Below, piece after piece: positions 13,862 to 53,922 of a DNA stretch of 64,000 nucleotides. Positions within the stretch are counted from its first letter, which is position 1; the number at the start of each line of letters is the position of its first letter. This DNA comes from Paragonimus westermani (taxonomy: Eukaryota; Platyhelminthes; Trematoda; Plagiorchiida; Troglotrematidae): assembly GCA_008508345.1 (NCBI GenBank), contig QNGE01003775.1, forward strand, positions 1 through 64,000, given 5' to 3'. The position numbers and the translations under genes are program-made. A model generated the notes under the pieces. That model searched no databases. It was given only the letters and a program-made list of their open reading frames with translations, and had not been told where the DNA came from.

Positions 13862-14260
13862 AACAAACAAGCTGCAAGCGGAGTCGAGCCGACCAATGAG
13901 AAAGCGAAAGCGTCATCAACAATCGTAATTCTTCATTTTACCGATGCGTCTAATCTATACAATAACTAATAGAAATCCCATAAACTGAGGTTCGCTTTGT
14001 GCCACGAAGAATGACTTTTGCTTTCGTTCCGGAAGGTAGCGATCTTTTAACACGAAGTACGTGAACATACTGTCGGCACTCTATTCCCATATTTCAGCTC
14101 AGGTTGAGGTTTACGGTGAACTCATAATAATTCAATCTTACAAACAGCTGTTTTCGGTAATTCTCACCGTGCTTCTACAGTTACATGGGAATACGTGCGA
14201 GTTATATATGAATTTATGATGAGTTAAACAGGAACGTTAGGATTAGAGAAATGGTACAGA

Positions 14261-14760: not shown

Positions 14761-14780
14761 ATGGCATCAGTACCGAGCAG

Positions 14781-26400: not shown

Positions 26401-29400
26401 CACATACACCGGTAGCCACGTTACACTGAGTAGTCGGAGGTCTATTTATGCCATGATCTTACTATAAAATGCGACCTCCATTGGCTGAAACACCTCATTG
26501 CGTGAATCGGCATCCAGGGAGAGGTCATTACAAGCAATAAAATATAGTACATCTGTTAAGAATCCAAGCAATTTCTTCATCCGTACGATACAGAACATTC
26601 CCGTGGTACCTTAAAATCCGGCAGTAAACTGGTTGCCGGTTGAACTACTAGTTAACGTACTATTCAACCTAATTAAGTAGACGGGTGAAATGGAGGGATG
26701 TTGCATTTGACACAGTTTCTTCCTACAGAACCAGCCATCACGGAGTTAAAAGCAACAGCCCGAATAAGCTAATGTACGGAAAAGCATTATGTAAGAAGCA
26801 TAAAGTCGTCTACGTGTATAAACTAGAAGTTAGACTCATTCATATACTAAGCAGAAACCTGTTTTACAGATCGGCGCGTATTGGTCCACTTAAAACAACC
26901 CGATGTTCGCAAGGAGTAAACGGTTTTCAGAACCTACCAGCAGCGAACAGAGGGCGTGCTAGTGTAATACCTTTGCTCAAAGATGCCTGAAACCTCGTTA
27001 CAGTGCACCGGAGTTACGTGAGCCATACAACAAGCATTATACAGAGCACTGCCTTCCTTCATGATCGTTTCCAGAGGAAGGTGACACTGTGCCAATGTTC
27101 ACTAGATTTCTCACTTACTCTATCCCACAGTCGCACTGCGCACATGCTACACAACTACTCGGGTGCGCTGATTCACTCTTCCATGTCTGATGTTCGAGGT
27201 GCCCGAGCACTTTCGGTCCACTGACCAACATTCCCATACACATGCTGTGTCGATGCGATTCAACAAGAGTAACCATAAAATTCTGCAGCTTGACTTTAAG
27301 TTTTATTTTTGTATGATAGCACAACAACGATAAGTATCCGTTTCCAAGCAGCCTGCCGCGCTTCGACAGCTTGTCCTTTGAGGTAAACAAGGAAAAACCC
27401 TAGTATCAGAATGATACGGGTGGTTGGCTCCGTGCCATTCGGTGATTCTTCAGACGGATGAAGATGAACAATAGTGTTGCCGGAGTAATGGATCTACGCT
27501 TGATAGACTGTAAGCTATAAAGTGTTACGTAAGTTATTTGATAGTATTACGACCTGATGTACTCTGCCAAGTCACAAAGGGGTTTGAAATGTCCCACTAG
27601 AAGTACATGAACCCTTGGATAGCGTGCTTCCCGCAGAGCCTTCACAAGCCATAGATAAATCCCAGCGAAGACATACAAAACACTGGCTCCAACGCAAACG
27701 AACGATGCACTCGGCACCATGAATGACTGGATCGATTTAGTCACTGATCTCCGGCAAAAGGGTGTGTTCCAAAAACACCGTGTTTCGTGATGTTGCCCTC
27801 CAGACAAGACCTTTGCTCAAAGCCTCCGGGCGAGCTTTCTCAAGTCGACCTCATGCTTCGGACTGAACAACGGAATATTTATTTGGCCTACAATTAAACC
27901 GTATGAATTACTCTACGTGGGTAACATGAGCCGCAATGTTCACTGTTCAAATGCATGCCCTGTCTCACTGTCGAGTATTTCTGTGAGTGTTATGGTGCGA
28001 TCGCTCGCTCGCCCTCACTACATTGATAGTGGTGTTGGAAACTCTATATCCTTACGCACTTCGGAAGACTGGTTGGGTTTTGTCAACAGGAGGCAGTGCA
28101 TTGCGAGACAGTAAGCGTAGCGCTACTTTGTGGTTGAAAGATCCGGTGGTCCCGCGTCTGGTATGTTTGTACGGGGTTTTCCAGACTCGCTGATTACCGA
28201 GCATCGCCTGTGTAGACACCATCACGTGAACAATGCTGACACAGGGCAGCATGTACAGGGATCAGGTAATCTCTTTTTGTGTAAAGTCGTTTCATTAGAC
28301 TGATTCTGGACACGTCTTGCACAAGCCTACCAAGCACCCATAATCTAACCTCCTATTCATATACGATGGGTCTGACCGAGAAGTACAGAACAAAAGGTAC
28401 TCACAACGTGGGACAAGACAGGTTTGACCTCCATCAGCGGCATCCGGCTTAGCGGTTGAGTCCAAAAGATGCTGGGTGTTGTTGGCTGAACATTATAGCG
28501 AGCAGAAGTCAGTGGCGAGATAGTTGTTATGCTCACCGCAGTAGCTGCGTTTAAGTGTGGCTGGACATTTGAGAAAGAACATAATTAATCGTAACCAAAA
28601 TATAAAAACCGCGAAGAATGTAAAAACGATGACGAACACTTTTTTCAGTTTCCGCTGTATATTCTTCGTTACATCCTTTATGACAGTACAACAGTGATGT
28701 GGGATGGTCGTGTAACTTTGTGCCGACCATTTTTCGATGTTTGTCCAACTATTCGGCAAGTTAGCCTCAAATCCAAGTGTAATTCAACTGCTATGTCAAA
28801 GCAGATGTGTTGTCAAAACAAGTGATAACAAATAGCGTACTACTTATTGAGAAGATATTGCACCGAGTTAAAAGACCATCCTAAGGTGGGACTACACAAA
28901 GAGGAACAAAAAGCACGGTTCCTCGGTCAATAAACGGTGTATCGATCTCTTGGAATATTAAACGTGTAGCAAGCAATGGATTAGCATTCGGAAGATGTGG
29001 CTAAGCCAGCGAAAAATGAAATAATGTATTTTCAAAAGTGAGAATTCAATGTTAAAATGGCCCTATGGAGTGCAACAATGATTGAGCCAAGAACCGATAA
29101 ACTGCAAATGAGTTTAGTGGACTTACGTGCCAACATGAACTTCGCAGTTATAGGACTCGCCAAAGAACCAAGACAAGTTGGTTCTTCAAACCAATAATAA
29201 ACACCACCAAGTACGAACAGCGCACAAGAAACAGACGTGAAAACCAGGTAAAGCATAAAGTACATATGGTTATTCATCCCAACACAATTGTAAATCCACG
29301 GACAATGGTGATCGAACCGGGCGACACAACGATCACAACTAGCACAATGTTTTGATCTCAAGGGCTTCTGAACCAAACAGGTGGTACAAAAACGTTCCAA

Positions 29401-32400
29401 CGGTTGTGAAACTGGCTTTGATTGCTGTCCGTCATCGTCGTCCACTTGACTGATGGTTCTTTCTACAAGTCTAATGACGGTCAGCTGGCGATCCTCAATG
29501 TCTGAAGTGGGGATATAACCAGGATCAGTGGTGACACAACGGTAAAAGGCAATCCATAATCCGGTCACACATATTAAAAAAGAAAAGTGTAACACCCAAT
29601 GCTGGTTACTGTGTGGAACCAAGTAAAGAAAATAAGTTGCCGTCAGTAGAGCAGTGGTACTGATTGCCAGACTGAATAGTAGAATAATCTGAAGGGAAAA
29701 TAAAAAAAACAGAAAAAATCCCCCATTACGTTGATAACAAAAACATATAATGCAACACAAGATAAGTCAAAAAACAGCTATAACTGCATCGAGAATACTG
29801 CGAAGTTAATCGAAAACCCAGAGCGTTGTAACTTTGAAACAGGTCAAACCTTTGAACTCAGCAGGAAATCAGAAGCCTAAACTTGTTTTTAGTCAGGAAG
29901 AACAGTGACTGTCCTCGTCCGCCACCACCTAATTGTTGCCTTTGTGATATAGGCTATAACATCAGAAACTAGTTGAGAACTTTAGTCATTCTCCTGCCAA
30001 TGTTTACTAGTCGTGCTAGTGGCAATAATATTCGTGGATGTATGTAACGAAGAACTGAAGTGGTCGCCGGAAAATTGACGTGTTGGAGAACAACGTGGCA
30101 AAAATGGCAGATTCTAAGAACGAAGTTGCCAGTGGTGTCTACACTGCCCCAGAATTGTTACGGTATGCAAAATGGTACTTGCCCGATGTGTCGTTGAAGC
30201 ACGTACCACCCGTGTCCGTCCACTGAATAAACTACCCTCGTGCTAGTCACATTCTTTGCTCATAAAAGCAGTACCCAAGTCTACATACAACGAGAAATTC
30301 CTACAATAAGGACAATCCGATAGTGTGCCGGTCACCCCATACTATAAACTGAGTAGCTGCATCAAGTAGGGTGGTTAAGCAGTAAGTTTTGTTTACCCTC
30401 CCAAGGGTCAGTACCAACGTAATTCTTCACATTCGCTTGTGCTTTATTTCTAACAACCTTTCCCAACTGCCTGAAGAGACAGCCGATCGTAGAATCAACG
30501 TCTGTGTTCTAGTTGCAAGTTTCTACTATCCGCTGTTGAGATTTAGTGTGCGAGTTGATACAGGTGCTGACGAAATCTGCATTCTCAAACGGATGGACGG
30601 GCGGACCACTTTCACCTGGATTCTAAATTTATCGAACACCAAAATTAGACAGCGATCAAAGCATCTAACTGAAGGAACACGCATTGTATACTCCACACCT
30701 GTAACACACGTGAAGCGATACCGTCTTTTTTGCGTTTGGTCAGGCTGAAGTAGAATGGATCATTCAGCACGGTGGCCTGGTAAGATTGGTAAGGCAGATT
30801 CTTGTGTCGTTCTGGTGTTACAACTAGTTCTGGACGACGAACCCTCCGAAGTATATTAACTGTATCTGTTAAGGCTTCTACCAACACCAACGCTAATATC
30901 AATCAGGGGGCCTTTTGTTCGGACCCAGGTGCACGCACTAAACCCAATAAAACAATTATAATATAGTCATGTAAGTAAGCAATAGGTAATCCCGCACTAA
31001 CCAATTGAACGATGCCGAGTCTCGTCTAAGTCACGAACCTGTACTAGCCCCATAAAGCACAAATGATGTGAAGCGGTTGTTCCAAGTCTGCACTGAGAGG
31101 AACATTCGAAATAGCCCAGAAGAGGAGATTTTTCAAAAGAGATGAAAGCTGGTCAAAACAAGGTCATGCAAGCAAAACAAAAACGGTAGGAGTGCAGGTA
31201 CACATTGACTGCGGCATAGTATCACTTCAGGTGGCGTTTTTAACCAGTGATTTCAGTTACTAAGAAGACCCCAGCCGGGAACGCGAAATCTACACACCAC
31301 GTAATAGGAAAATCAGGGAAATTATATGCTGTGCGCACATCACTGCCTGACCACCGCGTGACACAAACAAATTGTTGGTGATCTCAGCGCATAGCACCCG
31401 GTATGGAAAAAGTCCAGCTGGCGTGCGCAGTACATGATCCAAGCATCGTGGGCCACGCAACCTGATTGGTTCACCAGTAGACAGCTTGTCCCCAGCAGTC
31501 CGAAATACGTGATAGCAACCGCCTATCACCATCAAAGACAGCAACATATCAGTGGTTCTGACAGAGACTTAACTACTACATAACCATCGAGAAAAAAACA
31601 AACCCTCGCGAGAGAGAAAAAGTACAAGAGGAGGGACAAGGGTGTAACTGCTAAAAATACGTCCATATTCACAAATTCAACAGCAAGGTGTCCACACCTT
31701 GCAAACAAACATCCGGGCTGCAAGTGAAAGTAGGGCGTCATCAGCAAGACAGCTTCCTTACAGCTTTCACTACCCCATGCCACTGGGTGCACTCAATTCA
31801 CGGACAACGACAACATTCATGTCACTGAGCCCGAGTAGCCGCCATTTCATCTGACGTCTCCAACCACCGACTCTGTGAATCGTCAGGTCCCCAACCCGGG
31901 AGGCAAACCCGACCTACAGTTGCCAACCCTCGGCGAACGATTTCATTTCCCTATGCCAGGTTATCATCTGTCCACCTAAAACTATGCACCAGCCGGCCGC
32001 AACGTCCAGTAAGAGTGTCCAGTGTGGCGGACGACCAGTTGGTAACACCAGTACATGAATTAGCTATCTAATTCTGTGTGGACAAAGGGATTCAACAAAA
32101 GAACTCGTTTAACAATCACTAAAAAATACCCGTTTCCTAACCTCGAAGTCCCAATCGGAAAACGAACGTGCAGGCGGATGCCGAAAATAGCAAAGAAAGG
32201 TCGAGAACGCTTGTGAAAGGCAAAGAACCGCACATCTGTACCAACTTTGAAGGGTACCTATAACAGTAGTGTTAGGTCTTTTGAGAGGCAAAAAAAACGA
32301 TATTTTTGGATAAGCGGAGACTTTTCCGACATCTAACTTAATCCTTATTAACATACTTTTTAAAAAGAGTGCTCCGAATAACCATTTCCAAAGAGTGCAT

Positions 32401-35400: not shown

Positions 35401-38400
35401 AGAAACGACATGATTCCAGGTACACCACTGACTATAGCACACTGCCATCTCCGATAACGTTTATAACCAGCGATTTGGGTGATCACGAGGACCCCAGACA
35501 GACAGACGACACCTACCTACCTTGCTCAGTGAAACAGTCAGGGTCTTCATACTTTGTGACCATGATGATGCGTGACCACCATAAGGTTTTACCCAACCGT
35601 TAGTGGTCACAGTACGCAATGCCCGAGACGGTAGACGATCAGCTGATATACGGAGTATGTGGCCCAACCATCGCATGCTTTCGACGCGATTTGTTGACCT
35701 ATTGATCGCGCACCTCGAGCGTTTCCGAGTAACCGCCGACAAACGGCGGTGTTGCTCGCTCGATTAGGGCACTAAATGTGGACTAATTGGCTTGAACAAC
35801 GATGGTCAAACATAGTAATTCTGTTGACGTCTTAGATGCGAACAGTCCACGTCTCNNNNNNNNNNNNNNNNNNNNNNNNNNNNNNNNNNNNNNNNNNNNN
35901 NNNNNNNNNNNNNNNNNNNNNNNNNNNNNNNNNNNNNNNNNNNNNNNNNNNNNNNNNNNNNNNNNNNNNNNNNNNNNNNNNNNNNNNNNNNNNNNNNNNN
36001 NNNNNNNNNNNNNNNNNNNNNNNNNNNNNNNNNNNNNNNNNNNNNNNNNNNNNNNNNNNNNNNNNNNNNNNNNNNNNNNNNNNNNNNNNNNNNNNNNNNN
36101 NNNNNNNNNNNNNNNNNNNNNNNNNNNNNNNNNNNNNNNNNNNNNNNNNNNNNNNNNNNNNNNNNNNNNNNNNNNNNNNNNNNNNNNNNNNNNNNNNNNN
36201 NNNNNNNNNNNNNNNNNNNNNNNNNNNNNNNNNNNNNNNNNNNNNNNNNNNNNNNNNNNNNNNNNNNNNNNNNNNNNNNNNNNNNNNNNNNNNNNNNNNN
36301 NNNNNNNNNNNNNNNNNNNNNNNNNNNNNNNNNNNNNNNNNNNNNNNNNNNNNNNNNNNNNNNNNNNNNNNNNNNNNNNNNNNNNNNNNNNNNNNNNNNN
36401 NNNNNNNNNNNNNNNNNNNNNNNNNNNNNNNNNNNNNNNNNNNNNNNNNNNNNNNNNNNNNNNNNNNNNNNNNNNNNNNNNNNNNNNNNNNNNNNNNNNN
36501 NNNNNNNNNNNNNNNNNNNNNNNNNNNNNNNNNNNNNNNNNNNNNNNNNNNNNNNNNNNNNNNTGCGAAGGCTGCGATCAAATGCGAGTGATGGTCAACC
36601 TGAAAATAAACCAAATCTTCGACTACTCATCAGTAATCTAAAATATCGCCTTGCAGGTTTAATGAGATCAGTGATTTCGACCTGTCTTGGAAGTCCTAAT
36701 CGCGGGGTTATCGATTGGAGTTAACAGGCAGTAACTGTGTCTCCTCTCGGGACGATCGGGCAACCTGATCATTGCTCACAAACGAGAGTGGCTAAGCTTT
36801 CAGATTTGATAATTCGGTCGTGCCTAATGTGAGGTCAATGGCGCAGTGGTCAACACGGTTGCCTCATGACTGGAATGGCCGGAGTTCAAATCCCGGTCGT
36901 GGCAAGGATATGCACTACTGACGAGCTCTAATGAGAGCGAAGCTCGAGACCAGTGCTTCTTTTCGAAAGAGGCTGGCTGGAAAGTCTATCTCAATGCGAA
37001 GGCTGCGAACAAATGTGAGTGATGGTCAACTTGAAAATAAACCAAATTCCCGACTACTCATCAGTAATCTGAACTAAGATATATTCCGAAATCCGACCAT
37101 CGACGTCCGTGTTCGATCACGCACACTAAGATGTATCAACAGATAGGCAACATTGAAGTCTGGGTGGGGTGTTTTGTGACACGGGTCAAGAGGGGTCATT
37201 CGTCCGATCTCTAAGGATACACAGGCTAAGGGGTTTGGATCGTATACCCGAAATACCAGCTAAACGTTTCCCATATCGAGTGTTGTTTGTCGCAGTGCAA
37301 GGATGATCAACGACGGCTTGGCACAACGGAATGAAGAAAGTTAACAGCAGGTAAACCAAGGCAGGCTGAGATCGGGGCTATCAAGACTGACGGCGGTGGA
37401 AATTAAAGGACGTGGGGCTTAATCGAAACAAGTGGTGTGACTGTTGTCCCTGTGTGATTGAATTATTTGTTCACCTAGCGCAGCAGGCGTTGCGGCCGAG
37501 TTCCCCATTGTTGCAGATGAACGAAGAACTTTAATCCAACCATCTACCTACACTTGTTCACTACGCTAGCCGTTCGAAGCTTGAACACACTGTATCGATA
37601 GGTATCTGCTTTCTAACCGGCTAGTCACAGCTGCGGCTGGCATGTCACACTCGTTTTGGCCCCGTGTGCATCCTCTCGTTTCATATTGACTTCGATTATT
37701 CGGTTGAGGTGGATCAAATGGTGACGGTCTGCGGTAGATCAGTATCACCACACCGCTAGTAAGTCCAGAGGCTTCCAAAATAGCAGAAGGAATAATATAA
37801 AGACACTCAGTTCAAGATGTTTGAGATCGTGGCGCTGAAGATGGCAGTTTATCAGAGCTCAACAGCTTGCACCTTACAGACTACAACAAAATAATTAAAC
37901 AGCAGTATAATAGAAGCTACTTATCAAGTGGACGGCGTTTTAATCTTGGTTAGAGCCTCATAGGGATTAAACCTATGAGGGCGCAGCAGACGTGGATAAT
38001 GCAGCCTGAAGCCGATCACCTGATCCACCAGAACATGTTCAGTATTGTAACCATATTCTGCTGAAGACGTACATGAACACCAATTCTCAGACACTACAGT
38101 GTTTAACCCATATTTTCAGCGAACGCACTTCTCTGCTTAACACCCGTTTCAAATGCCTGCAATTCAGTAGCACGTTAAGAACTTCTCACAGTGTGGTTAA
38201 CCATGAGTGAGAGAAATTCAGATTACCAAAAGTTACCACGGATAAGTTTAAAACGTCAATTTTTGTGTGTGGACTTGAGTCAACATCAAATGTGGATATT
38301 CGTGAACGCATTATACTGTAGGCATGATGAGTGTGACCAATCAGTGCCGATGATTGTTAAATCTCACAAACGACACCATACCAACTTAAGAGCTTATTTC

Positions 38401-41400: not shown

Positions 41401-44400
41401 TTACTTCATCTTACGGTAAAGAGGGTCACAAAGCTTGGTGAAAACTCAGCCGCTTCAACACCAGCGGATGGCAACGTCTGTAGAATCCTTTCAGACACAG
41501 TCCGTAGCTTACCAGTAACTATCAAAATGGTGGTAGTGGCGACAGAAAGAAATGTTTCAGTGCAGAAGGACATGCATTACCTCCAGACTGGTTGACCAAG
41601 TGCTGCGATAGAGAAAAAAACATTCCTCGCCCTAAAGATTTACTCAAGACTGACAAATGGCAGACCACGGTAAATCGTGTAATAAGGCTGTTATACTCAG
41701 GCCATCGTGGCATTAGTTGTATGAAGTCGGTGGCTTGCAGTTATGTTTGCTGATCAAGAGTCCACAGTCCAATTGAACAGCTGATTCGAATCTGCAGTAA
41801 CTGTACACAGTGGCGATAAAAATGTCCGTTAACTGGAAGCAATTCTCACGTCCCAAGGCTGGCAAACCACAGTCGCGGTTTCGCATTGACTTCGCAGGTC
41901 TGTCAAACGGACGCTTGTATTTACTAGCAGTCGGTGCACACTCGAAGTGGACAAACGTTCTCCTCAGGTAAATAACTACAAAATCTACAACCCCGTCCTA
42001 CCCCCGACGACTACCTTCTCAATTTGGTGCTCCAGAGGTTTACACGACTGGTAATAAACCACAGGTCAGTTCAGTGGAATTTCAAGAATCTTATCAACGG
42101 CGGCAATCGTGAAGTACTTATGCCTAACGCCCGCAATTTAACGGCCAGGTGAAGGAGATTGGTAGATACGTTTTAGAGGACTTTGTAGAAATTTGAATGC
42201 AACCGGGGGCAGAGGAAATGACCAACGTTTTCCTCAATATTCGGAACAACAGACACCAACTGGAGCATTTTGTGACGACGGTTGAAGATCCCGTTTGGTT
42301 CAGTAATTCCAAAGACAATTACAACAGTGAATAAGCGGCGGTCAAAACGGCAGATCGACTGTTGCAAATGGCACAATTATATGGAACTGATCCACATTTA
42401 AAGTTACTGGAGGAACGGAACACTCCTGACGAAAATGTCCCACAGTTCAGCTCGGAGAATGTTGAAGAGAAGAACATGCTCGAGTCTATCGAAAATAGAA
42501 CTGCTAAAACCTCATTCATCGAGGGAAACCGAAGTGTAAGACGATTTGAGACAGCGAATGCTACGCCGAAAGCCATACCACGATAGAGGAGCCCACCGGC
42601 TCTATGGGTGGGTGGCAAGGTATGGGTATAGTATGTTCCATAAAACACAGCTGCGGACCGAATGAATGGTGGTGAGGTACTGCTGTTATCGGTCATACGA
42701 AGCAGAATCCAGAGAAACGAAATGGAGGAATCGTGTGCATCTGAGAAAACGAGTAACGTCGGACGGAGAGCACCTCCCCATAGATGAGGAAGTGGTATCA
42801 CGAACCGGGAGTGTACTCTACTAGAAAAAAGGAGGGTGTAGAGGGATTGGATTGGATAAACGCATCAATACGAAGTCAATCGGGTATTTGCAGTACGTCA
42901 CGGCTAATCGGTGTCGAAAACGCGAACAAATTGGCACGTCACCACGGTGACCAATCCGGATGGCACGCTTTCGCAAAGACAAGTATCTCAAGTGCGTCAC
43001 GCGTTGAAACAGACCGAGCCGACCGATGGAAAAGCCAAGCAATTGGCATCAACTGTAATTCTTCATTTTACAGATGCATACTGTTTATAAAATAACCAAC
43101 AGAAACGCAGTAAAACTTATATTTGCTCGGTGCCAGGAGTGCTGCTTTTGATTTCCCCTCGGCAGGTAGTGATTTTTCAAGTCAACGTGGTAATCTTTAA
43201 CGAATAAACTGAACTTTTAGCTTTTACTTCTTACAACTAATTCAGTAAATGCAATAGAAGAATTAGTGAATGGAATGTGATTGTAACTGAAAAGCGCTTT
43301 ATGAAGCACTATTCGACCGTCCGAGACTAGCGAATAAAGAAACATTATCAGACAACACAAACAGCACCCAAAAAAAGATTTACTAGGATAGTACTTACCT
43401 GGGATTGATAATCCGAAATCCTCCATAAAATGCGTCGACAGCAAAAGCTAAGCGATATTAAAAGCAGCAACTTCAGCGAGTAACCAAACCATCTGCGCAC
43501 AGTTAATGAGGGACTAATGAAACCGGCAGTGAATCCAAAATCCAAACTTAGAATGATAACACAACTTAAAAGTATTGTTGGTGGAATGGCCATCGTTAGA
43601 CGGAATCGCCATTTTGGTGAATGAGGAATTTCAGAACATCGCAAGCGAGAAAAACGGTCAGTAGAAAGTTTGGACGAGTGAACTTGAATGCGAGCCATTG
43701 ACTGAACTCTATCAGAAAGCCAAGGGACGTTACGAACCTGCGACAAACGAGAAGATGGGAATTATGCCACCAAATCAAGACGGGTGTAGAGCAGAACAAA
43801 GCAAAACCAACAATGAATCACTAACCACTGACCTTTTATGTATACCAGATGAGCCTTGTGGCAGAAACAACATTTTACCACACCAATGAGGGCGCACGTA
43901 ACACGAAAAAACGAACAAATCTGAAAGGTTAATACAGAACTAGGTGCTCTGCCCTAATTCTGATGAACGAAGATGGCAACCATGAGTAAAACCTAAACTG
44001 AGGCACGATGGTCATTGCACTGGAGCTCAGCAAACAAACTATATTCAACTAAATCAGCAGCTGAACGTTCTTCAAATTCGATGCCAGCTCTCATATTCTA
44101 GTCAGCCACGGGTTGTTAAAATGGGCAAATGTTAAAAGTCCGAAACGGAATATAACCATACAAGATTTATCCACAAACCGAAATCTGTTCAGAATGTGCT
44201 CATCGACCAGACTAATCGGAAAATAGTTTGAAGTTAGAAGGATTACTGGAGTAAATTCAATATGAATAACACGATTCTGCAGCCGCAATTCTAACAGCTT
44301 TTACCAACAGTGAGATGTGAGTCAGTGTAAGATCCAGGTACACCCTCGCGCGCTCCTGAAGCATCGTTGTCATATGGACAGATATTTCTCGTGCAAATTT

Positions 44401-46491
44401 GCAAAACGGCTTAGTGGCTGAATGCACTGTTCCTCCAAAGCCTGTTTTGCCAGTTTTGGTGAGCATTTCTTATTCAGAGCGTGAGGGTGGTTGGAAGAGG
44501 TTTCAATTCTTATCTATTCGGGGTTACCCCTACCAGTAAGATCCGTTATGCAATAGGTCTTCCATTTTTTCACCAATGCATATTAATTTTATCGCAGCTT
44601 GATAAAGAAGTTCCCCGCGGTTTTTCCCTCTCGAGCATCCGGTTAAGAGTTCTAGAAATCGATTATCTAGAATCAAGGGTCTACAATTCGACAAAAACCT
44701 CCTCCCAGGAGAGTTGAAATGCGGTTGTGATTTGTCGGGGCAACGTACATTTGTTGCACTAGCGGACGGCAGTTAACAAGAGCTTGATCATTCACACGTC
44801 AACCCCGTCATACGTATATACTCACTGAATGGGGTTTGGCTTAATCGTCAGATAGTCCAAAAGGCATCAGTTTGTAAGGAAATCACATTACGAGTCTGAA
44901 AACTGTAAATAAGGCGTACAAACGAGTGCAATCGTTTAGAAAGTTTCACAAATGCCCGATAGCTTGCATGTGTAAGTTTAACTATATGACCTTAAAATTT
45001 ACGCTAGCGTAAAGATGTGAGTCACATTTACGGTCGTGCAAGCAGTATGTCTGCAGACATGTCCCGACGCTGCGCCCGATACCTTCATCCACGAAGCAAT
45101 CCCCTTTTTCCTTATAGTAATTTGAAATTTCCCACCGCTCTTGTATCAGTAATGTGGGCGTGGATGACGTGATTAAGTTGAAAACGCCAGCGAAAGAAAT
45201 CAACTTAACTGACAGCCGACCAGCGTATCCAACTGACGTGTCGGAGTCCGAAAGTATAGCTCCGTGAATAATGACACGACCTACATAACCTCCTGTATGG
45301 AGGAGGACTAATATGATGCCGAGTCAACTGAATTAGAAAAGCGAGTCCCTAAGTAGGATGCTTTAAATTTCTGTTGATATGCATGTGTTCTAACGCCCAC
45401 AAGAGCGTAACTTGAGTGACATAAACAGAGAAAAGGGATCCCGGTCTGTTTAACGAGAATTTGTTCTACATGTGTTGTGAACAGCACTTTAAGGACCTCA
45501 GCGACGAATAACTTTAGCTGGCTAGAAGCGGACATGATTCCCCGGCCTGCAAGGAGCGGCTCGTCACGGAGATTAAAGAAAAAATAAACGGCCAAACCTA
45601 ACAAACGATATACACGTAATTACCTCATATGGTGCTTTCCCTTCTGCATTCAATGAATTCCAGTCGGCGCCTGCCTTATTCAAAGCAATTACTGCGGGTA
45701 CGTTGCTGAAGTTCACCGCGTAATGGGCTGCAGAGTTACCGCGAGAGTCACTCAGAGTTAAGTCTGCACCCCACGCTATCAGCAGACGGAACACGTCGGA
45801 CGATCTTGTATGCATACAAGCAACCATCAGTGGCGTTATACCATTGGCGTCACGGCTGAAAAAGAAGGTTGCAAGTGTCAGAAATACACAAAACATTAGT
45901 GATGAATGATTGAGAACTAAGTGACAAACTAAATATAGCTTACCTGTCGACGTAAACACCGCTTGCAAGCAAATAAATGATAATCGGGACGCTTCCCATT
46001 TGAACAGCCACGTGAATGCAGGCCAAACCGGTATTATCTCGAACAGTTGGATCAGCGCCGTGTTGCAACAACAGATGAACCATATTTAGATGTGACTGGC
46101 GGATAGCCCAATGTAGTGGCGTGGCAGCCAAATTCCCTCCAATTCTATCAACAAGAGCACCTTTCGACAAGAGGTATCGAGCAATTGCAAGACGATTGTT
46201 GATAGCAGCCCAGTGTAGTAAAGAAACGCCTTCGTCATCTAAATTATCTACATCATAGGCGGGATAGTTTGCACCGACACTTTTAGGCTCCACCAATGCA
46301 ACAACTCGAGGGAATATACCATATTGTACTGCTTTGACGATCGGCCAAGTAGAGTAATCTTCTACGTGATCCGACTGGAAGCCTGTGGGATAAGGTGAAG
46401 CAGCCTGAGAGCCAAATAAAAGATTAAGTTTATTGGCAACACCGGGTGAACAACAAAAACATGGATGAGTAGCTAGAGAAACAACGTTCAT
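19961..46491 (-). CDS. ZDHHC17: ZDHHC17/HIP14-like ankyrin-repeat palmitoyltransferase, whole gene (5 exons)
   Basis: This gene encodes a multi-pass S-acyltransferase that attaches palmitate to cysteines of target proteins through a DHHC cysteine-rich domain; in animals the family acts mainly at the Golgi and on vesicle proteins. Coding exons are 46491-45944, 45855-45624, 43737-43399, 29688-29127 and 20400-19961. Every junction has GT at the donor and AG at the acceptor, and the phases agree (2/1, 0, 0, 1/2). The sum is 2121 bp, or 706 residues plus a stop. Domain order matches human HIP14: ankyrin repeats (about 88-250), membrane segments near 309-330 and 344-362, two more near 374-425, DPG motif, DHHC at 499-502, last membrane segment, then TTNE at 607-610. 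The introns are full of transposons. The true N-terminus is uncertain, because the first exon could be entered by splicing instead of starting at 46491. Confidence 0.9.
20417..22222. other. Intron 4 sequence without recognised features
   Basis: A hydrophobic minus-strand ORF at 21114-21401 was considered as an exon. It is not needed, because exons 4 and 5 join in phase without it. Confidence 0.4.
22223..22368 (-). repeat. Left arm of an inverted repeat pair
   Basis: The reverse complement of this segment matches 26259-26404 over about 146 bp. Shared blocks include AATTTGTTGTTTAGCTTC, GCCTATTGAACTTT, CTGATGAGAT and GAGAGATACA. Identity looks like roughly 75 to 80 percent by eye. The pair encloses 3.9 kb that includes the RTE-like LINE. 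Confidence 0.75.
23119..23878 (-). pseudogene. RTE-like LINE FADD box and C-terminal domain
   Basis: The frame at 23878-23654 carries the FADD box. The frame at 23778-23119 has [60 protein letters not shown] and [20 protein letters not shown], the conserved C-terminal region of RTE-like LINEs. The overlapping frames mark a second frameshift. Confidence 0.85.
23894..25081 (-). pseudogene. RTE-like LINE linker and reverse transcriptase
   Basis: The frame of 395 codons holds the linker and the first reverse transcriptase blocks: [60 protein letters not shown] with the first catalytic Asp, and [20 protein letters not shown]. It stops 5 codons past the RRF block. The next frame, 23878-23654, continues directly with [20 protein letters not shown], so only a small frameshift separates motif B from the FADD box. 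Confidence 0.88.
25160..26200 (-). pseudogene. RTE-like LINE endonuclease, broken
   Basis: The frame at 26200-25781 has [20 protein letters not shown], then [17 protein letters not shown], the first blocks of an apurinic endonuclease (Asn and Glu of the active site). [13 protein letters not shown] follows. The frame at 25444-25160 has [20 protein letters not shown] and [11 protein letters not shown], which includes the catalytic His near the domain end. The middle (25780-25445) is out of frame. Confidence 0.82.
26031..26084. repeat. 27 bp tandem duplication in the LINE endonuclease
   Basis: Two exact 27 bp units (26031-26057 and 26058-26084) are followed by a partial third. In the minus-strand reading frame they repeat a nine-residue unit (RSATERPQR), so the reading frame is kept. 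Confidence 0.95.
26259..26404 (+). repeat. Right arm of an inverted repeat pair
   Basis: This is the partner of 22223-22368 in opposite orientation. Similarity falls off just outside 26404 and just inside 26259, so the arms have clear ends. Confidence 0.75.
26685..26840 (+). mobile_element. Gypsy integrase C-terminal scrap
   Basis: [20 protein letters not shown] with YGKAL matches the YRT-x-H...SP-x-x-L-x-YG block near the end of the gypsy integrase core. Nothing else of the element is evident nearby. Confidence 0.5.
26841..29126. other. Intron 4 sequence without recognised features
   Basis: Hydrophobic minus-strand ORFs at 28493-28759 and 27547-27807 were considered as exons and not accepted. 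I see no domain or repeat that I can name. Confidence 0.4.
29127..29688 (-). CDS. ZDHHC17: ZDHHC17 coding exon 4: membrane pair and catalytic DHHC domain
   Basis: The exon has 187 codons plus one base (residues 374-560 and part of 561). Two hydrophobic segments come first, then TTDPGYIP, the DPG motif that follows the fourth membrane segment in DHHC enzymes. The cysteine-rich domain starts at [16 protein letters not shown] and runs through [14 protein letters not shown] to [11 protein letters not shown]. The catalytic DHHC codons are at 29313-29302. All expected zinc-binding Cys and His residues are visible. A fifth membrane segment follows ([20 protein letters not shown]). The acceptor is a strong poly-T tract ending CCCTTCAG before 29688; the donor is CAC|GTAAGT after 29127. 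Confidence 0.93.
29760..30388. other. Intron 3 sequence without recognised features
   Basis: Only short ORFs are present and nothing is assigned. Confidence 0.35.
30389..30748 (+). mobile_element. Retroelement aspartic protease scrap
   Basis: [20 protein letters not shown] resembles the active-site region (DTG-A/S-D) of gypsy proteases. The flanking residues of this 119-codon frame are not distinctive and no reverse transcriptase follows, so the call is tentative. Confidence 0.4.
30903..31811. other. No recognisable gene
   Basis: About 0.9 kb with no domain or repeat identified. Confidence 0.35.
31812..32050 (-). mobile_element. LINE 3' end fragment
   Basis: The minus strand matches 15501-15620, including GGTTGGCAACTG, CCTCCCGGGTTGGGG and CACAGAGTCGGTGGTTGGAG. 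This is the C-terminal [12 protein letters not shown] region of the plus-strand LINE at 7.8-15.9 kb. Confidence 0.7.
32109..32815 (-). mobile_element. Penelope-like reverse transcriptase fragment, copy 2
   Basis: It has the same content as 1282-2050, including the CVND box. The frame at 32354-32109 is longer here and reads [20 protein letters not shown], which resembles the Penelope region between reverse transcriptase and GIY-YIG domain. Confidence 0.7.
32145..33945. repeat. 1.8 kb duplicated composite block, copy 2
   Basis: Near-identical twin of 1379-3180 inside ZDHHC17 intron 3. It carries the same Penelope fragment, unassigned middle and LINE 3' part, in the same order and orientation. 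Small differences include G to A at about 33171 and several changes after 33670. Confidence 0.9.
33374..33947 (-). mobile_element. LINE (RTE-like) reverse transcriptase, 3' part, copy 2
   Basis: Reading from 33947: [36 protein letters not shown], then [20 protein letters not shown] in the next frame. It is truncated at 33947, where copy 1 continues upstream into the rest of the reverse transcriptase. Confidence 0.75.
34440..35855 (-). mobile_element. LINE pair, 3' ends, copy B (cut by gap)
   Basis: The segment matches 52505-53921 nearly base for base at an offset of 18065. It holds two minus-strand LINE pieces. One is 34746-35250, with [20 protein letters not shown] and the CGCETGSI block. 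The other is 35255-35855, with [20 protein letters not shown] and [20 protein letters not shown], ending at a CATCATTATCAT tract near 35247-35260. The right side is lost in the N run. About 300 bp at the left (34450-34745) is non-LINE sequence shared with the basic ORF at 52302-52760. Confidence 0.85.
35856..36563. other. Assembly gap (708 N)
   Basis: The gap falls between repeat copy B and a SINE tail. By comparison with copy C, the missing sequence should begin with more LINE reverse transcriptase. Confidence 1.
36564..36639 (+). repeat. SINE tail, partial copy
   Basis: These 76 bp match 36995-37070 with few differences (shared AATAAACCAAAT and GACTACTCATCAGTAATCT). The body of this copy is lost in the gap. 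Confidence 0.85.
36831..37070 (+). mobile_element. tRNA-derived SINE with hammerhead-like segment (Sm-alpha-like)
   Basis: The 5' part looks like a tRNA promoter: an A box (TGGCGCAGTGGT, 36839-36850) and a B box (AGTTCAAATCC, 36883-36893) about 33 bp apart. A hammerhead-ribozyme-like core follows directly, then a non-tRNA body and a 76 bp tail. The order A box, B box, hammerhead is that of the schistosome Sm-alpha SINE-like element. The tail is repeated at 36564-36639, which shows the family is multicopy here. It encodes no protein and would be moved by a LINE. Confidence 0.78.
36912..36956 (+). ncRNA. Degenerate type I hammerhead ribozyme core
   Basis: CTGACGA (36918-36924) fits the CUGANGA core. 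Stem II is a perfect five-pair helix, GCTCT/AGAGC, with an AATG loop (36925-36938). GAA follows, then G in place of the conserved A. A stem I can form between GCACT (36912-36916) and AGTGC (36952-36956). The GAAA Ala-like position (A15.1) and the U of the cleavage triplet both look changed (GAAG...GAC instead of GAAA...GTC), with a C-A mismatch next to the site, so this copy is probably inactive. Intact family members would be expected elsewhere. Confidence 0.62.
37071..39409. other. No recognisable gene
   Basis: About 2.3 kb within ZDHHC17 intron 3. ORFs such as 38191-38508 and 38625-38960 show no domain. Confidence 0.4.
40285..40900 (+). pseudogene. Mag-like gypsy reverse transcriptase, broken
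   Basis: [17 protein letters not shown], then [15 protein letters not shown], shifts frame to [20 protein letters not shown] and [20 protein letters not shown] (motif A, Asp changed to Asn in the usual KIDLSDAY). After another break, [15 protein letters not shown] and [20 protein letters not shown] with [11 protein letters not shown] are the blocks after the catalytic box, whose own Y-x-DD is degraded. Confidence 0.75.
41150..42240 (+). pseudogene. Mag-like gypsy RNase H and integrase, broken
   Basis: [18 protein letters not shown] and [20 protein letters not shown] match the RNase H end. Scattered frames then give [34 protein letters not shown] and [17 protein letters not shown], which are integrase blocks, with a shortened DDE core. 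None is continuous. Confidence 0.6.
42319..43200 (+). mobile_element. Gypsy fragment, same family as 9.9-14.2 kb (integrase end, tail, possible LTR)
   Basis: [20 protein letters not shown] followed by [13 protein letters not shown] matches AAAKMAKRLLQLAQLSGGDP with YLMLLKKRNTPNE at about 13140-13250. TPKAIPR and [15 protein letters not shown] blocks follow. The DNA at 43010-43200 aligns with 13880-14050 (shared AATTCTTCATTTTAC), so part of an LTR may be included. It is joined abruptly to the Mag-like element. Confidence 0.72.
43399..43737 (-). CDS. ZDHHC17: ZDHHC17 coding exon 3: linker and first membrane pair
   Basis: The exon has 113 codons (residues 261-373), phase 0 at both ends. The acceptor is GTCGCAG|GTT at 43737 and the donor is CCCAG|GTAAGT after 43399. 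It holds a basic linker, then a hydrophobic segment near residues 309-330 and a second near 344-362 ending in RRILWRIS. This matches the position of membrane segments 1 and 2 in HIP14, including the FLSKSFF-like end. Sequence similarity to human is weak, but length, order and splice phase all fit. The donor leads into a 13.7 kb intron that contains an assembly gap. Confidence 0.82.
43747..45623. other. Intron 2 sequence without recognised features
   Basis: About 1.9 kb with only short ORFs. I see no repeat that matches other parts of the window. Confidence 0.4.
45624..45855 (-). CDS. ZDHHC17: ZDHHC17 coding exon 2: later ankyrin repeats
   Basis: The exon completes codon 183 and encodes residues 184-260. 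[15 protein letters not shown] and [20 protein letters not shown] are typical ankyrin helices and align with human HIP14 DQNGMTPLMWAA and the repeat after it. The acceptor is TTTTTCAG|C at 45855 and the donor is GAG|GTAATT after 45624. The intron separating it from exon 1 is only 88 bp. The exon ends in phase 0, matching the next exon. Confidence 0.9.
45944..46491 (-). CDS. ZDHHC17: ZDHHC17 coding exon 1: N-terminus and first ankyrin repeats
   Basis: The exon encodes residues 1-182 plus two bases of codon 183. It contains [14 protein letters not shown], close to the human HIP14 segment just before its ankyrin repeats, followed by [10 protein letters not shown] and [11 protein letters not shown]. 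In human HIP14 the Asn and Trp of these two motifs are reported to contact substrate peptides; both are kept here (Asn99, Trp128). The donor is CAG|GTAAGC, with the last exon base at 45944. The ATG at 46489-46491 follows an in-frame TAG, so it is a possible start. A pyrimidine-rich CTCTCAG before residue 30 (near 46404) could instead be an acceptor, in which case an upstream exon lies beyond the LTR element. Residues 1-29 show no family similarity that I can recognise. Confidence 0.88.
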
Positions 46492-46650
46492 AACCGACTA
46501 TGAAAACCTGTCAATGTAAGAGCTAACTGTCAAACTGAATAAGTCCTGCCCAACACAGGTATAGTCATAATACCACAAGGAACAAACATGTGTAGGAGGA
46601 ATGACAGTAAAACACAAAAAATATGACTGAGCAGCACAAACACCAATAAG

Positions 46651-46954: not shown

Positions 46955-47126
46955 TATTAATTTGAGCACGTGATTACACTTTGCCGTTTTTCGGTGAGTC
47001 CGCTCCGTAACGTTATTTTGCCTTGTACCTTCGGAAGGATTTTTTTGTTCGTTATCTATTTCGTTTATATTATATATATATATAACATTATTATATACCA
47101 CTGTGTAGCCGTTACTTGTCATACCC

Positions 47127-47969
47127 ATGTCAGCTAGCGGTTCTAAGCCGCCCGAGTACCCTACAGTAGCCATATCATTGGTAGTCCCACCGTTCTTAGA
47201 GATGGACCCTATCATATGGTTCGTACACCTAGAGGCAGAATTCTACAATAACCGAGTCCCTTCTGACCGGGCTAAATTCAAACAGTTAGTAGCTCGTTTG
47301 CCGAAGGAGGTCACGACACAGCTCCGAGATGTGTTAGTGAACCAACCCACAGAGAATAGCTACGAAACCCTTAAGAAAGCTGTAATAAAGCGAGTCACTC
47401 CACCGGAAAAGACTCGTCTGCAACAGCTATTTAGCGAGCTAAAGCTGGACGACAAACGCCCCACGACCCTACTTCGGGAGATGCAACAATTACTAGGCAC
47501 GTCGCACATGGACGAATCTCTCCTGCGCGAACTATGGATACAGAGACTACCGGAGACGGCTCAGGCGATCATATCTATCGCGAGATCACAGCCTTTAGCG
47601 GAGGCAGCAGAGATAGCTGACCAGGTAGTGGAACGTTTTCAACCGCTCCTCAACCAGGTTAGCACCCCAACCCAGGCGCCAGGTCCGGTGAGAGACGTGC
47701 CGTCGCATAATGAAGGCTGCCCATCTACATCAGCACCGAACGTAGAAGCATTGTGGGCCGAAGTCGCAGCTTTGTGCCGCGATTTTAGTAGAACCTCTTT
47801 AGGTCGTCCAACACGCTGGCGACCTAACAGATCGCCCAGGCGCACAACGTCGCAATCAAACGACGGCTACTGTTGGCACCACCAACGTTTCGGCACGCGA
47901 TCCACCAGGTGTGTTAAACCGTGCACTTATCTGGCGACCAACCAGGGAAACTTCCACGCCGGCCCGTAA
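47127..47969 (+). CDS. CsRn1-like gag
   Basis: An intact frame of 280 codons starts 180 bp after the primer site. It encodes the gag capsid region (WFVHLEAEFYNNRVPSDRAK, FKQLVARLPKEVTTQLRDVL, TSHMDESLLRELWIQRLPE) and a C-terminal zinc finger, CWHHQRFGTRSTRCVKPC, spaced C-x2-H-x9-C-x3-C. This CHCC finger is the hallmark of the CsRn1 clade and differs from the usual CCHC knuckle. The protein would coat the element RNA in virus-like particles. The following protease overlaps it in another frame. Confidence 0.9.
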   Translation: MSASGSKPPEYPTVAISLVVPPFLEMDPIIWFVHLEAEFYNNRVPSDRAKFKQLVARLPKEVTTQLRDVLVNQPTENSYETLKKAVIKRVTPPEKTRLQQLFSELKLDDKRPTTLLREMQQLLGTSHMDESLLRELWIQRLPETAQAIISIARSQPLAEAAEIADQVVERFQPLLNQVSTPTQAPGPVRDVPSHNEGCPSTSAPNVEALWAEVAALCRDFSRTSLGRPTRWRPNRSPRRTTSQSNDGYCWHHQRFGTRSTRCVKPCTYLATNQGNFHAGP

Positions 47970-48652
47970 TGGCGACTAACGTTGTCGGCGTTGCACCTTG
48001 TCGCCTCATATTCGTGAAAGATGCAGATATGGAAAACACGTTCTTGGTTGACACAGGGGCGCAGGTTAGTGTATTTCCACGAGGTGCCACACCCTTGGAG
48101 CCCACAGCTCCGTGCGGCAAACGGCACCCCTATACCTACATATGGGCAGCGTTCCTTAACCATTAATGTTGGCCTCAGGCGGAAATTCCCCTGGGTGTTC
48201 ACAATTGCCGCGGTACCTTTCGCTATAATCGGCATCGATTTTCTCCGGCATTTTGACATTCTGGTTGATACGAGACGCCGTCTGTTATTCGATTCTAGCA
48301 ATAAACTAAGCATACCCGACACGCATGCAACAGTTGCTGCCATAACACCCATATATGCTCAACCCGCTGCCCCCAGACAACTTGCGGACCTCCTCACTGA
48401 GTTCCCAGAGCTCGTTCGCACATCGAACGATATTCCGCCTGTGACCTCAAGTGTCACGCACCACATCCACACCAAGGGACACCCCGTCTCTGCACGACCT
48501 CGACGGTTGGCTCCTGACAAACTGAAACTCGCCAGGGCAGAGTTCGAGCACATGCTTGAAGTCGGAATAAAACGCCCTTCCGTGAGTCTATGGGCCTCAC
48601 CGTTGCACATGGTCCCTGAGAAGTCAGGTGACTGGCGCCCATGAGGTGATTA
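47921..48652 (+). pseudogene. CsRn1-like protease and start of reverse transcriptase, frameshifted
   Basis: The first frame gives CRLIFVKDADMENTFLVDTG with AQVSVFPRGA (active-site DTG). It then shifts to the frame of 48021-48644, with AAVPFAIIGIDFLRHFDILV, the protease end (IIGxDFL), and SVSLWASPLHMVPEKSGDWR, the start of reverse transcriptase. A TGA at about 48642-48644 interrupts the expected RPCGDYRRLN. Confidence 0.85.
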
Positions 48653-49221
48653 CCGCAGGCTAAACAAAGCAACCGCCCCTGACAAGTATCCAATCCTACA
48701 CATGTAGGATTTAACGACTTGCTTACATGGGAAAACCATATTCAGCAAGATAGATTTAGTACGCGCATATCACCAGATCCCGGTAGCCAAAGAAGACATA
48801 CCCAAAACCGCAGTTATAACCCTCTTTGCCCTTTTCGAATTTCTTCGAATGCCATTTGGCTTGAGCAACGCAGCTCAAACTTCCCAACGCTTCATACATG
48901 AAGTGACACGCGGTTTGGACTTTGTCTACCCTTATCTGGATGATATTTTGGTAGCCAGTTCTTCACGGGAAGAACACGTCACTCATCTCCGCACCTTACT
49001 GGAACGTCTGACCCAACACGGTTAATCCTACTAAATGCGAATTAGGTTAAGTCACGATAGAACTTCTGGACCATAAGGTCTCAGAAAAAAGAATCGCCGC
49101 ACTCACGGATAATGTTACAGCTATTCGTGAATACCCTGAGCCAAGTTCCTTTAAGCAACTTCGTCGTTTTAGAGGTCTGGTCAACTACTACAGACGCTTC
49201 ATACCTTATTGTGCGTACATA
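48645..49221 (+). pseudogene. CsRn1-like reverse transcriptase core, with stops
   Basis: GDYRRLNKATAPDKYPI is followed by a stop at about 48706. [20 protein letters not shown] (first catalytic Asp) and [20 protein letters not shown] follow in another frame, then [17 protein letters not shown], an intact YLDD box. Further stops occur near 49023-49080, and FRGLVNYYRRFIPYCA marks the end of the domain. Confidence 0.82.
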
Positions 49222-49690
49222 ATGTGGCCAATGACCGATCTTCTCCGTGAAGGTGAACACAAATTCCGGTTCACCGAGGCCGCACGCACGGCGTTCGTTA
49301 AGCTCAAGGATGCGGTAGCCGAACTAGCTCTCCTTGTCCATTCTAATCCAAACGCACCATTGTCCATTGTGACCGATGCTTTGGACACAGCCGTTGGTGC
49401 TGTTTTACAACAGCTCGTTGAAAAACAGTGGCAACCGTTAGCTTTCTTCTCCAAACGCTTACAACCCGCGGTAGAGAATTGTTAGCTATCTATTTAGGCG
49501 TCCGCCATTTCCGCCATTCAGTGGAAGGCAGGACCTTTGCTGTTTACACCGACCATAAACCGTTAACCTACTTCTTAAACACTTCAGGCATTCCCCAACG
49601 GAAGTTAAGCACCTGAACTATATCGCTCAGTTCACGACTGATATACGACATGACTCAGGTGCCGAAAACACTGTCGCGGACGCTCTTTCA
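49222..49690 (+). pseudogene. CsRn1-like RNase H, frameshifted
   Basis: FTEAARTAFVKLKDAVAELA, then SIVTDALDTAVGAVLQQLVE and AFFSKRLQPAVENC, ends at a stop. The next frame continues with ELLAIYLGVRHFRHSVEGRT and VYTDHKPLTYFLNTSG. A third frame holds ADALSRVHNLSAA near 49680. Two frame breaks occur in about 450 bp. Confidence 0.82.
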
Positions 49691-49877
49691 CGCGTCCATA
49701 ACCTCAGCGCAGCTGCTAACCAGAGTATCGATTTGACAGCCATGGCTGCCGCACAAGACACTGACCCTGAGATCGAGCATCTTCGCCAAAAGAGCTCTCA
49801 CCATTCAGCCAGTACTTCTGACATCTTCAGAGGGAATAATCCTCTGCGACACTTCACAGGGCACACCTCGCCCCGTA

Positions 49878-50573
49878 GTGTCTGCATTTTTTCGCCGCGC
49901 AGTGTTTGACACATTGCACCCTGGCATACGCGCTTCAGTCAAACTTGTTACTGAACCATTCGTATGGCCCAAGATAAACCATGACGCCCGCAACTGGAGT
50001 CGTTCTTGCCTACGATGCCAACGTTCCAAAGTCCACCGTCACACAAAGAGCCCCCGTGGTACCTTCCCTTTGCCAGACGCACGTTTTCACCACGTGCACG
50101 TTGATCTGGTAGGCCCATTACCACCTTCAAATGGCTCTACTTATCCGTTGACGTGTGTCAACCGCTTCACCAGATGGCCTGCAGCCATACCGCTACCCAA
50201 CTGCTCATCAGAAACAGTAGTCAGCGCCTTTCTGGAACGTTGGGTGGCACAATTCGGTTGTCTAACAGCGATGACCACAGATCGCGGATCACACTTTGAA
50301 GTACACTTCGCAGCCCTCTTGAGTATGCTAGGGAGCAAGCACATCCGAACCACGGCCTACCACCCGGCAGCAAATGGAATGATCGAGCGTTTTCAACATC
50401 AGCTAAAAGCGGTCCTTAGCGCATATGCCAATCCCTCGTGGAAAGACGCACTACCGTTAGTTCTTTTAGGCTTGCGAAACACAGTGAAAGGGGACCTAAA
50501 CGCTACTGCAGCCGAATTAGTTTTTTATTGCACACTTAGATTACCAGGTGAACTCGTCTCACCTGCACCTTGA
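49878..50573 (+). CDS. CsRn1-like integrase
   Basis: An intact 231-codon frame. It has the second half of the zinc-binding region (SRSCLRCQRSKVHRH) and a complete DDE core: HVDLVGPLPPSNGS (Asp), MTTDRGSHFEVHF (Asp) and HPAANGMIERFQHQLKAVLS (Glu). LPLVLLGLRNTVKGDLNATA and ELVFYCTLRLPGELV are CsRn1-clade end blocks. The protein would insert element DNA into the host genome. The N-terminal His pair lies mostly in the preceding, disrupted frame. Confidence 0.87.
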   Translation: MSAFFRRAVFDTLHPGIRASVKLVTEPFVWPKINHDARNWSRSCLRCQRSKVHRHTKSPRGTFPLPDARFHHVHVDLVGPLPPSNGSTYPLTCVNRFTRWPAAIPLPNCSSETVVSAFLERWVAQFGCLTAMTTDRGSHFEVHFAALLSMLGSKHIRTTAYHPAANGMIERFQHQLKAVLSAYANPSWKDALPLVLLGLRNTVKGDLNATAAELVFYCTLRLPGELVSPAP

Positions 50574-52760: not shown

Positions 52761-53922
52761 CCCACAACTCACAAACAATGTACCATGTGACAGACAATGA
52801 GCTAGCATCCCTACGTCAACTTAGCCTGTGAGACGAGCTCAGTACGATCTCGGGTTGACAGTCTATTCTGTCCGAAAACAAGTCGGCGGACTTCATCAGT
52901 GCTGACAAAATGCTCCAACGACACGCCGCTAATGCTTCGGAAAAATCGATAGTAGAAGACGGACATTCCACAAATATACCCCGTGTGAATGGATCCGGTT
53001 TCACAACCGCACATTAAGACGGTCCCAACAGTGGCATTGTGCACCCAGCCTTTCATAGAGAGACTGAGGTCATACCGAAGCTACAAGTAGGGTAAGTTGG
53101 CAAACGCCACTTCAGCATTTGCTATGCGATCTTATGTGATCTTATCAGACATTCTATCAACGTTGATACAACTCTAAACGTACATAGACTTCTCGACTTC
53201 TTCCAAATGCTCACCACCAAGCGTGAGAACAGGCGCCGGGTCATACCAACTTTGCAACAACACCATGCACTTAGTGGGTTCAAAGGCCATACTAAAGCCA
53301 CTGAAGCCTTTCATCATTATCATAACAGCTCTCAGCCTAACCCGAAGGTACTGTGGCTCGGGCCGCCGCTCACCTAAACAGTGACGCGAAATATCTCGAG
53401 GAAGCGTTACTGAAAATGTTACAATAAATAAGTAAACACGCAAAAGAGGACTAGGCGGAAGAACTAGAAACGACATGATTCCAGGTACACCACTGACTAT
53501 AGCACACTGCCATCTCCGATAACGTTTATAACCAGCGATTTGGGTGATCACGAGGACCCCAGACAGACAGACGACACCTACCTACCTTGCTCAGTGAAAC
53601 AGTCAGGGTCTTCATACTTTGTGACCATGATGATGCGTGACCACCATAAGGTTTTACCCAACCGTTAGTGGTCACAGTACGCAATGCCCGAGACGGTAGA
53701 CGATCAGCTGATATACGGAGTATGTGGCCCAACCATCGCATGCTTTCGACGCGATTTGTTGACCTATTGATCGCGCACCTCGAGCGTTTCCGAGTAACCG
53801 CCGACAAACGGCGGTGTTGCTCGCTCGATTAGGGCACTAAATGTGGACTAATTGGCTTGAACAACGATGGTCAAACATAGTAATTCTGTTGACGTCTTAG
53901 ATGCGAACAGTCCACGTCTCCG
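52505..53922. repeat. 1.4 kb duplicated block, copy C
   Basis: It matches 34440-35855 nearly exactly, up to the point where that copy meets the gap. The part 53627-53922 also matches 1-290. So three copies of the right part and two of the left part exist in 54 kb. Confidence 0.92.
52815..53310 (-). mobile_element. LINE thumb and C-terminal fragment
   Basis: From 53310 down: [20 protein letters not shown] and [17 protein letters not shown] (thumb), then a jump to [20 protein letters not shown] and [20 protein letters not shown] (C-terminal region). It abuts the 3' end of the next LINE at a CATCATTATCAT tract. Confidence 0.72.

Follow-up and report, generated by a model that had tools for sequence, protein, structure and literature searches.

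The locus described here raises two questions: whether the hammerhead-like core behind its tRNA-like promoter is a genuine remnant of a ribozyme-bearing SINE, and how the members of such a family are inserted into the genome. It lies in a window of 64,000 nucleotides from the fluke Paragonimus westermani, by which we mean the whole stretch of DNA analysed. The initial annotation had placed a 240-bp SINE at 36831-37070. The element is real, but its extent had been underestimated: what is repeated is a unit of 431 bp, tandem in plan, and the element runs upstream past 36831 to 36646 and on into a run of Ns. Positions 36564-37076 comprise approximately 1.2 laps of this unit, each lap having the order linker, tRNA-like head, type I hammerhead, tail (Table 1). 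One lap occupies 36646-37076 and is preceded by the end of another, the start of which falls inside the N gap 35856-36563. The second tail, noticed earlier and taken for a separate copy, does exist, but it is the end of this preceding lap (90% identity) and thus part of the same insertion. In the window copy the predicted cut lies after position 36950 (unit 305). Two classes of 3' ends found among the insertions of the family (see below) map to approximately 37038 (unit 393) and 37067 (unit 422), and the window copy belongs to the long class.

Table 1. Positions of the element, its parts and other coding features in the window.
Feature	Positions	Strand	Remarks
End of preceding lap, unit 350-431	36564..36645	+	82-nt repeat, 90% identical to 36995-37076
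Linker, unit 1-185	36646..36830	+	Conserved among sibling loci
tRNA-like head	36831..36904	+	A box 36839-36849, B-box-like stretch 36883-36893
Type I hammerhead motif, degenerate here	36912..36956	+	Siblings match RF00163 across the same 45 positions
Tail	36957..37070	+	Based on end positions of sibling insertions
GIY-YIG-like ORF of a Penelope-like element	14264-14851	-	Recognised by eye; no Pfam hit
DHHC ORF	29032-29766	-	
Ankyrin ORFs	45573-46497	-	

The head contains a perfect A box (TGGCGCAGTGG) and a B-box-like stretch (AGTTCAAATCC), which has two mismatches to GGTTCGANTCC. Both boxes had been reported together with the CTGACGA that follows, for which we measured a distance of 24 nt past the B box. 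The window has two box pairs in which the A box is perfect, against an expectation of about 0.5, so that the boxes by themselves are weak evidence. ARAGORN did not call the head a tRNA in the window or at 29 loci of the families A to C described below, and the Rfam tRNA model gave no match to the window head.

The motif downstream is more specific. CTGACGA at 36918-36924, the five-pair stem II GCTCT/AGAGC, GAA at 36939-36941 and the closing arms GCACT/AGTGC are all present as the initial annotation had described them. A descriptor scan of both strands matched the window at this place only, and no match was obtained in 60 simulated 64-kb sequences, on which ground a chance origin of the core was rejected. 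At relaxed thresholds Rfam reported Hammerhead_HH9 at 36900-36973 with 25.7 bits (E 4e-4 for 587 bases; the gathering score is 52), while at gathering scores there was nothing in the window. The copy departs from the hammerhead at positions 15.1 (G) and 16.1 (A) and in the 1.1-2.1 pair, and at lowest energy 36900-36980 does not fold as a hammerhead. These three changes, together with the score below the gathering threshold, bear out the earlier suspicion that this copy is probably dead. The same score and fold are what one would also expect if the likeness to a hammerhead were a chance match. We consider this explanation practically negligible: besides the empty simulations, the consensus of sibling copies restores the core, siblings pass the Rfam model RF00163, and at least 35 places in the same genome exceed its cut-off compared to none in 14 control genomes.

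The siblings were found by searching the genome (823 Mb in 9,701 contigs). The element as query gave 2,904 first-look candidates; the 40 that were scored correspond to 40 near-full-length places with 94-100% identity, the window included, and two short matches were found in addition. A query including the upstream linker gave 2,403 candidates, of which 40 were scored, at 95-100%. We examined thirty loci with flanks (L001-L030), ten more, and then thirty from the upstream-linker query. The family, which we call family A, is thus multicopy as claimed, with at least 40 near-full-length places. In the six flanks examined the shared sequence stops at the 431-bp unit, and the masked loci have just a few unrelated repeats in common, which argues against a larger parent element. 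Beyond its own genome no copies were found: the tail and core patterns had no matches in viral contigs, and the tail had none in genome_contigs.

In the consensus of the siblings L002-L030 we found CUGACGA, GAAA and GUC with closed helices. The aligned sibling letters have A at 15.1 in 46/46 cases and U at 16.1 in 45/45. A core with CUGANGA, GAAA, NUH and all three helices is intact in 68 of 95 sibling laps; failures concern CUGANGA (13 laps), GAA (8), stem II (7), the 1.1-2.1 pair (4), the 15.1-16.1 pair (3) and H17 (2). Ten of 11 sibling loci, the exception being L011, exceed the cut-off of Hammerhead_1 (RF00163), with 34.7 versus 34 bits. The check proposed in the initial annotation (genome search, alignment of copies, Hammerhead_1) therefore gave further copies with a consensus containing CUGANGA...GAAA and NUH, the lack of either of which it had named as contrary evidence. 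Judged from its sequence, the window copy is a dead member of a fluke hammerhead SINE family with a tRNA-like promoter, whose relatives keep predicted intact ribozyme cores.

Family A is accompanied by others. The RF00163 search of the genome, in which 74 of 136,546 candidates were scored, gave at least 42 matches, those over the cut-off mentioned above among them. By eye, the best 20 places (L071-L090) comprise four diverged relatives of family A, 13 members of a family B with GTGGTGCTGATGAG and three of a family C with CTCCACCTGATGAG. Most of these 20 have a B-box-like stretch a short way upstream of their hammerhead. A stem III that is a palindrome occurs in several, chiefly in family B. 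The copies of this family are 73-83% alike to the query and hence older.

A palindromic stem III is also a property of family A, where it consists of the 8-nt sequence ACUCGAGU. For this reason two laps can pair into a double hammerhead: the lowest-energy fold of two strands consists of two hammerheads with a common 8-bp stem III, at -34.1 kcal/mol compared to -13.7 for a single strand. The window copy gave no such fold with two strands. In the single 45-mer the 15.1-16.1 pair has a probability of 0.00, and a 91-nt stretch of the consensus does not take up a hammerhead as its fold of lowest energy. In the full unit the probabilities are 0.94 for stem I and 0.95 for stem II. When the unit is folded as a circle, 63% of it is paired, the same as in shuffled sequences, and its energy is lower (z -2.15). 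The excerpted text of PMC7761336 describes dimeric forms of minimal hammerheads for amphibian and Penelope-like motifs, and that of PMC8490949 a very short stem III for related schistosome hammerheads.

The question of how the unit moves was approached through the structure of its insertions. We delimited 75 insertion clusters: inverted arms occur in 31, 21 consist of tandem laps only and 23 are single. Excluded were locus L041, segments with less than 85% identity and further records of an insertion already counted; short fragments and clusters beside N gaps were kept. Head-to-tail junctions are exact and insertions extend beyond one lap. A direct repeat of at least 8 bp was present at the ends of 28 out of 62 usable insertions (at least 200 bp and free of N gaps), compared to 0.6% for re-paired flanks, and target site duplications (TSDs) of this length are 73% A+T. 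Most outer 3' ends fall into two narrow peaks approximately 29 nt apart, at unit 390-400 (short) and 417-431 (long), with a minority elsewhere. If the ends are taken as starts of reverse transcription, these lie 88 and 117 nt past the predicted hammerhead cut, and the region around them (unit 391-424) has an A+C content of 73.5%, close to the highest within the unit.

The two kinds of ends are combined in a peculiar way. Among 30 two-ended, gap-free insertions 22 have one short and one long end, one has two long ends, none has two short ends and seven have another end, while by our own arithmetic the class frequencies predict approximately 11.5 short+long, 7.5 long+long and 4.4 short+short. 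Sixteen of the 22 carry a direct repeat of at least 8 bp in the listed flanks. Selection for long ends was inherent in the first query; in the loci from the second (L042-L070), which was free of selection at the 3' end, 9/12 insertions are short+long and 3/12 have another end. It could be argued that short and long ends mark two subfamilies, one of them without the last 29 nt, and single-ended insertions of either kind do occur (21 long, 11 short and 5 other; n=37). The presence of both kinds within one insertion in 22/30 cases and the lack of short+short insertions make this very improbable, and point to two start sites instead.

Which enzyme would start at two such sites? An ordinary LINE could move the element by target-primed reverse transcription, the inverted copies being products of twin priming. 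TSDs, 5' truncation and inversions are known with LINEs, too, and the window holds RVT_1 ORFs of non-LTR type. Twin priming on a single RNA leads to arms which do not overlap and to a variable second start, while here both arms start at nearly the same place of the RNA, at two fixed positions and with one of each in 22/30 insertions. Since the starts nearly coincide, both arms cover the same sequence. We therefore regard a LINE as an unlikely mover.

The signature does resemble that of Penelope-like elements (PLEs). According to the excerpted parts of PMC11167929, PLEs use two adjacent internal start sites with the tail between them, both target strands being cut and extended, and a one-sided 'tail' is called unique to them. 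Such a one-sided tail, lying between two internal start sites, is what the 22 short+long insertions have. In the PLE studied there, copying most commonly starts 111-118 bp inside the ORF, and the hammerhead cuts 26 bp inside it, which by our arithmetic places the start approximately 85-92 nt past the cut, within an AC-rich stem loop. The part of PMC3846280 used here describes TSDs of 8-10 bp and a pair of inverted pLTRs, one of which bears a 31-bp tail. From these two sources, PLEs and our unit have in common tandem and inverted truncated copies, a hammerhead, duplications of approximately 8-13 bp, a tail of approximately 30 bp at one end and a start approximately 88 nt past the cut. The near-strict rule of one short and one long end per insertion is left unexplained by the cited passages of PMC11167929, because the start site in vitro is the same there for top and bottom strands. 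Family B also has two 3'-end classes on opposite strands at neighbouring places, at approximately 219-233 and 316-350 of the query, a pattern noted at 10 places (ranges taken by eye, some possibly duplicates). These classes are approximately 100-120 nt apart, well above the 30-40 bp of a tail, which counts against the PLE reading, and at two places (C1772 and C2292) two long ends are paired.

The unit itself is not a PLE: it differs from PLEs by its tRNA-like head and has no RT-endonuclease ORF, since 431 bp with nothing common outside cannot hold an RT plus a GIY-YIG domain. Such an enzyme would have to act in trans. PLE-type ORFs are abundant in the genome: the GIY-YIG-like ORF of the window (Table 1) gave 21,390 first-look candidates as a query, and among the 150 scored, three PLE places have open frames of 860-886 aa with matches free of stops. 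We found no sequence common to the SINE unit and both ends of three PLE copies (L091-L093, L095-L097) beyond chance-level matches; a fourth PLE 5' locus (L094) is mostly N. Downstream of the GIY-YIG-like ORF, positions 14122-14333 (minus strand) are a 3' region in common with other PLE copies. By eye, this region holds a degenerate hammerhead-like stretch with ACAGCTGT, which is the stem III palindrome of family B.

The published retrozyme model offers a different template for the tandem laps, namely a monomeric, ribozyme-made RNA circle, here of 431 nt, which is copied round. The exact junctions and the insertions longer than one lap are in line with it. Laps copied from one circle should be alike, and we compared them at 12 polymorphic sites, without the loci L050 and L067: adjacent tandem laps agree in 52/70 comparisons, inverted arms in 34/51 and unrelated insertions in 60%. 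Neighbouring tandem laps thus differ in 18/70 and inverted arms in 17/51 comparisons. Laps of one insertion are just somewhat more alike than strangers, so that part of the differences must come from multimeric RNA, from a second RNA, from conversion after insertion or from errors in the assembly. Because neighbouring laps often carry different subfamily alleles, the usual template was probably not one monomeric circle. Moreover, hammerhead mutants of a PLE still insert in vitro, where cleavage is not needed, as stated in the cited part of PMC11167929. Altogether a monomeric circle seems an improbable usual template. Overall lap divergence (0.052 within and 0.056 between insertions) was dropped as a test of the circle, since decay alone yields similar values, and the subfamily sites alone were used. 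In L050 and L067 the arrays have approximately 4.5 laps; the inner laps are nearly identical and the outer ones 5-8% diverged, as if homogenised like a satellite.

Based on these observations we favour, with a probability of roughly 0.7, a hammerhead SINE of the Sm-alpha/retrozyme type that a Penelope-like reverse transcriptase mobilises in trans, with internal starts at two sites, usually without a monomeric circle as template. RNA polymerase III would start at the tRNA-like head and transcribe beyond one lap. Two laps, of one RNA or of two, could then pair into a double hammerhead, as the computed pairing allows, and this is proposed to cut. A Penelope-like RT-endonuclease, suggested by the insertion signature, would open both target strands, and copying of the RNA would begin internally at approximately 88 and 117 nt past the cut, usually once per target strand, the template probably being a multimeric or a second RNA in most cases. 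Such a course would yield the ends that we observed, with a tail of approximately 29 nt on just one side, as well as TSDs and truncated laps in inverted or tandem arrangement. In a wider sense, flukes may carry a class of SINEs with a Penelope-like helper instead of a LINE, in which a tRNA-like promoter is joined to a PLE-style module of hammerhead and RT start, priming is internal at two sites on two strands, the template is usually multimeric, and the hammerhead has another job than making circles; we give this generalisation even odds.

At its place in the window, the element may lie within a gene. Along 75% of its length, the ankyrin ORF at 45940-46497 (minus strand) is 81% identical to a partial Clonorchis sinensis ZDHHC17, and its tapeworm and monogenean matches are at 55-60%, which points to a digenean host. 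Probably the DHHC and ankyrin ORFs belong as exons to a single ZDHHC17-like gene, and the SINE sits between them in an intron, in antisense orientation. Domestication as an intronic ribozyme is unlikely, because the copy is broken and antisense to these exons. The window contains further repeats. A pair at 13412-13984 and 42592-43114, approximately 29.2 kb apart and 72-86% alike, resembles LTR-retrotransposon remnants when taken together with RNase H, integrase and DUF7041 ORFs at 11651-12703 and 47109-50573. A 295-nt repeat is present in three copies with 99-100% identity (1-295, 35561-35855 and 53626-53920). Two of them are 18,065 bases apart, as are the neighbouring repeats D2, D3, D5, D6 and D8, and this shared spacing suggests a recent longer duplication or a mobile element.

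In plan, the unit belongs with Sm-alpha and the retrozymes. The excerpted text of PMC2770079 describes Sm-alpha as a tRNA-Gln-related SINE with a hammerhead and gives approximately 38,500 hammerhead candidates in S. mansoni. As far as can be taken from that source and the part of PMC4918200 used here, Sm-alpha and Sj-alpha of Schistosoma are like our unit in being SINEs with a tRNA-related (in our unit tRNA-like) head and a type I hammerhead, in high copy number and in a fluke host, a likeness drawn from published descriptions. Our unit likewise has its hammerhead downstream of the head and a high copy number. In contrast to Sm-alpha, the host is not a schistosome, the closest named protein being from Clonorchis, and the Sm-alpha descriptions in these excerpts mention no Penelope-type end signature. 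Non-LTR retrozymes are characterised by tandem units of 150-450 bp, a type I hammerhead and TSDs, all of which we found here with a unit of 431 bp; it differs from the metazoan ones in that it has a tRNA-like head and that laps of one insertion often differ. Retrozyme-like repeats have been mentioned for platyhelminths in a general way. In the open-licence literature we found no report of a PLE tail on a hammerhead SINE, nor of hammerhead SINEs in a non-schistosome fluke. What looks new is the Penelope-type insertion signature on a hammerhead SINE, along with the evidence against a single monomeric circle as its usual template.

So far the mover of animal retrozymes and of Sm-alpha-like elements is a matter of conjecture: PLEs are called 'a strong candidate' in the cited part of PMC7229834, and 'LINEs or Penelope-like retroelements' are given in PMC11722881. 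The insertion ends described here point to PLEs. This fingerprint can be looked for wherever a genome contains hammerhead SINEs, and differing laps within one insertion provide a genomic test of ribozyme-made circles as the insertion template.
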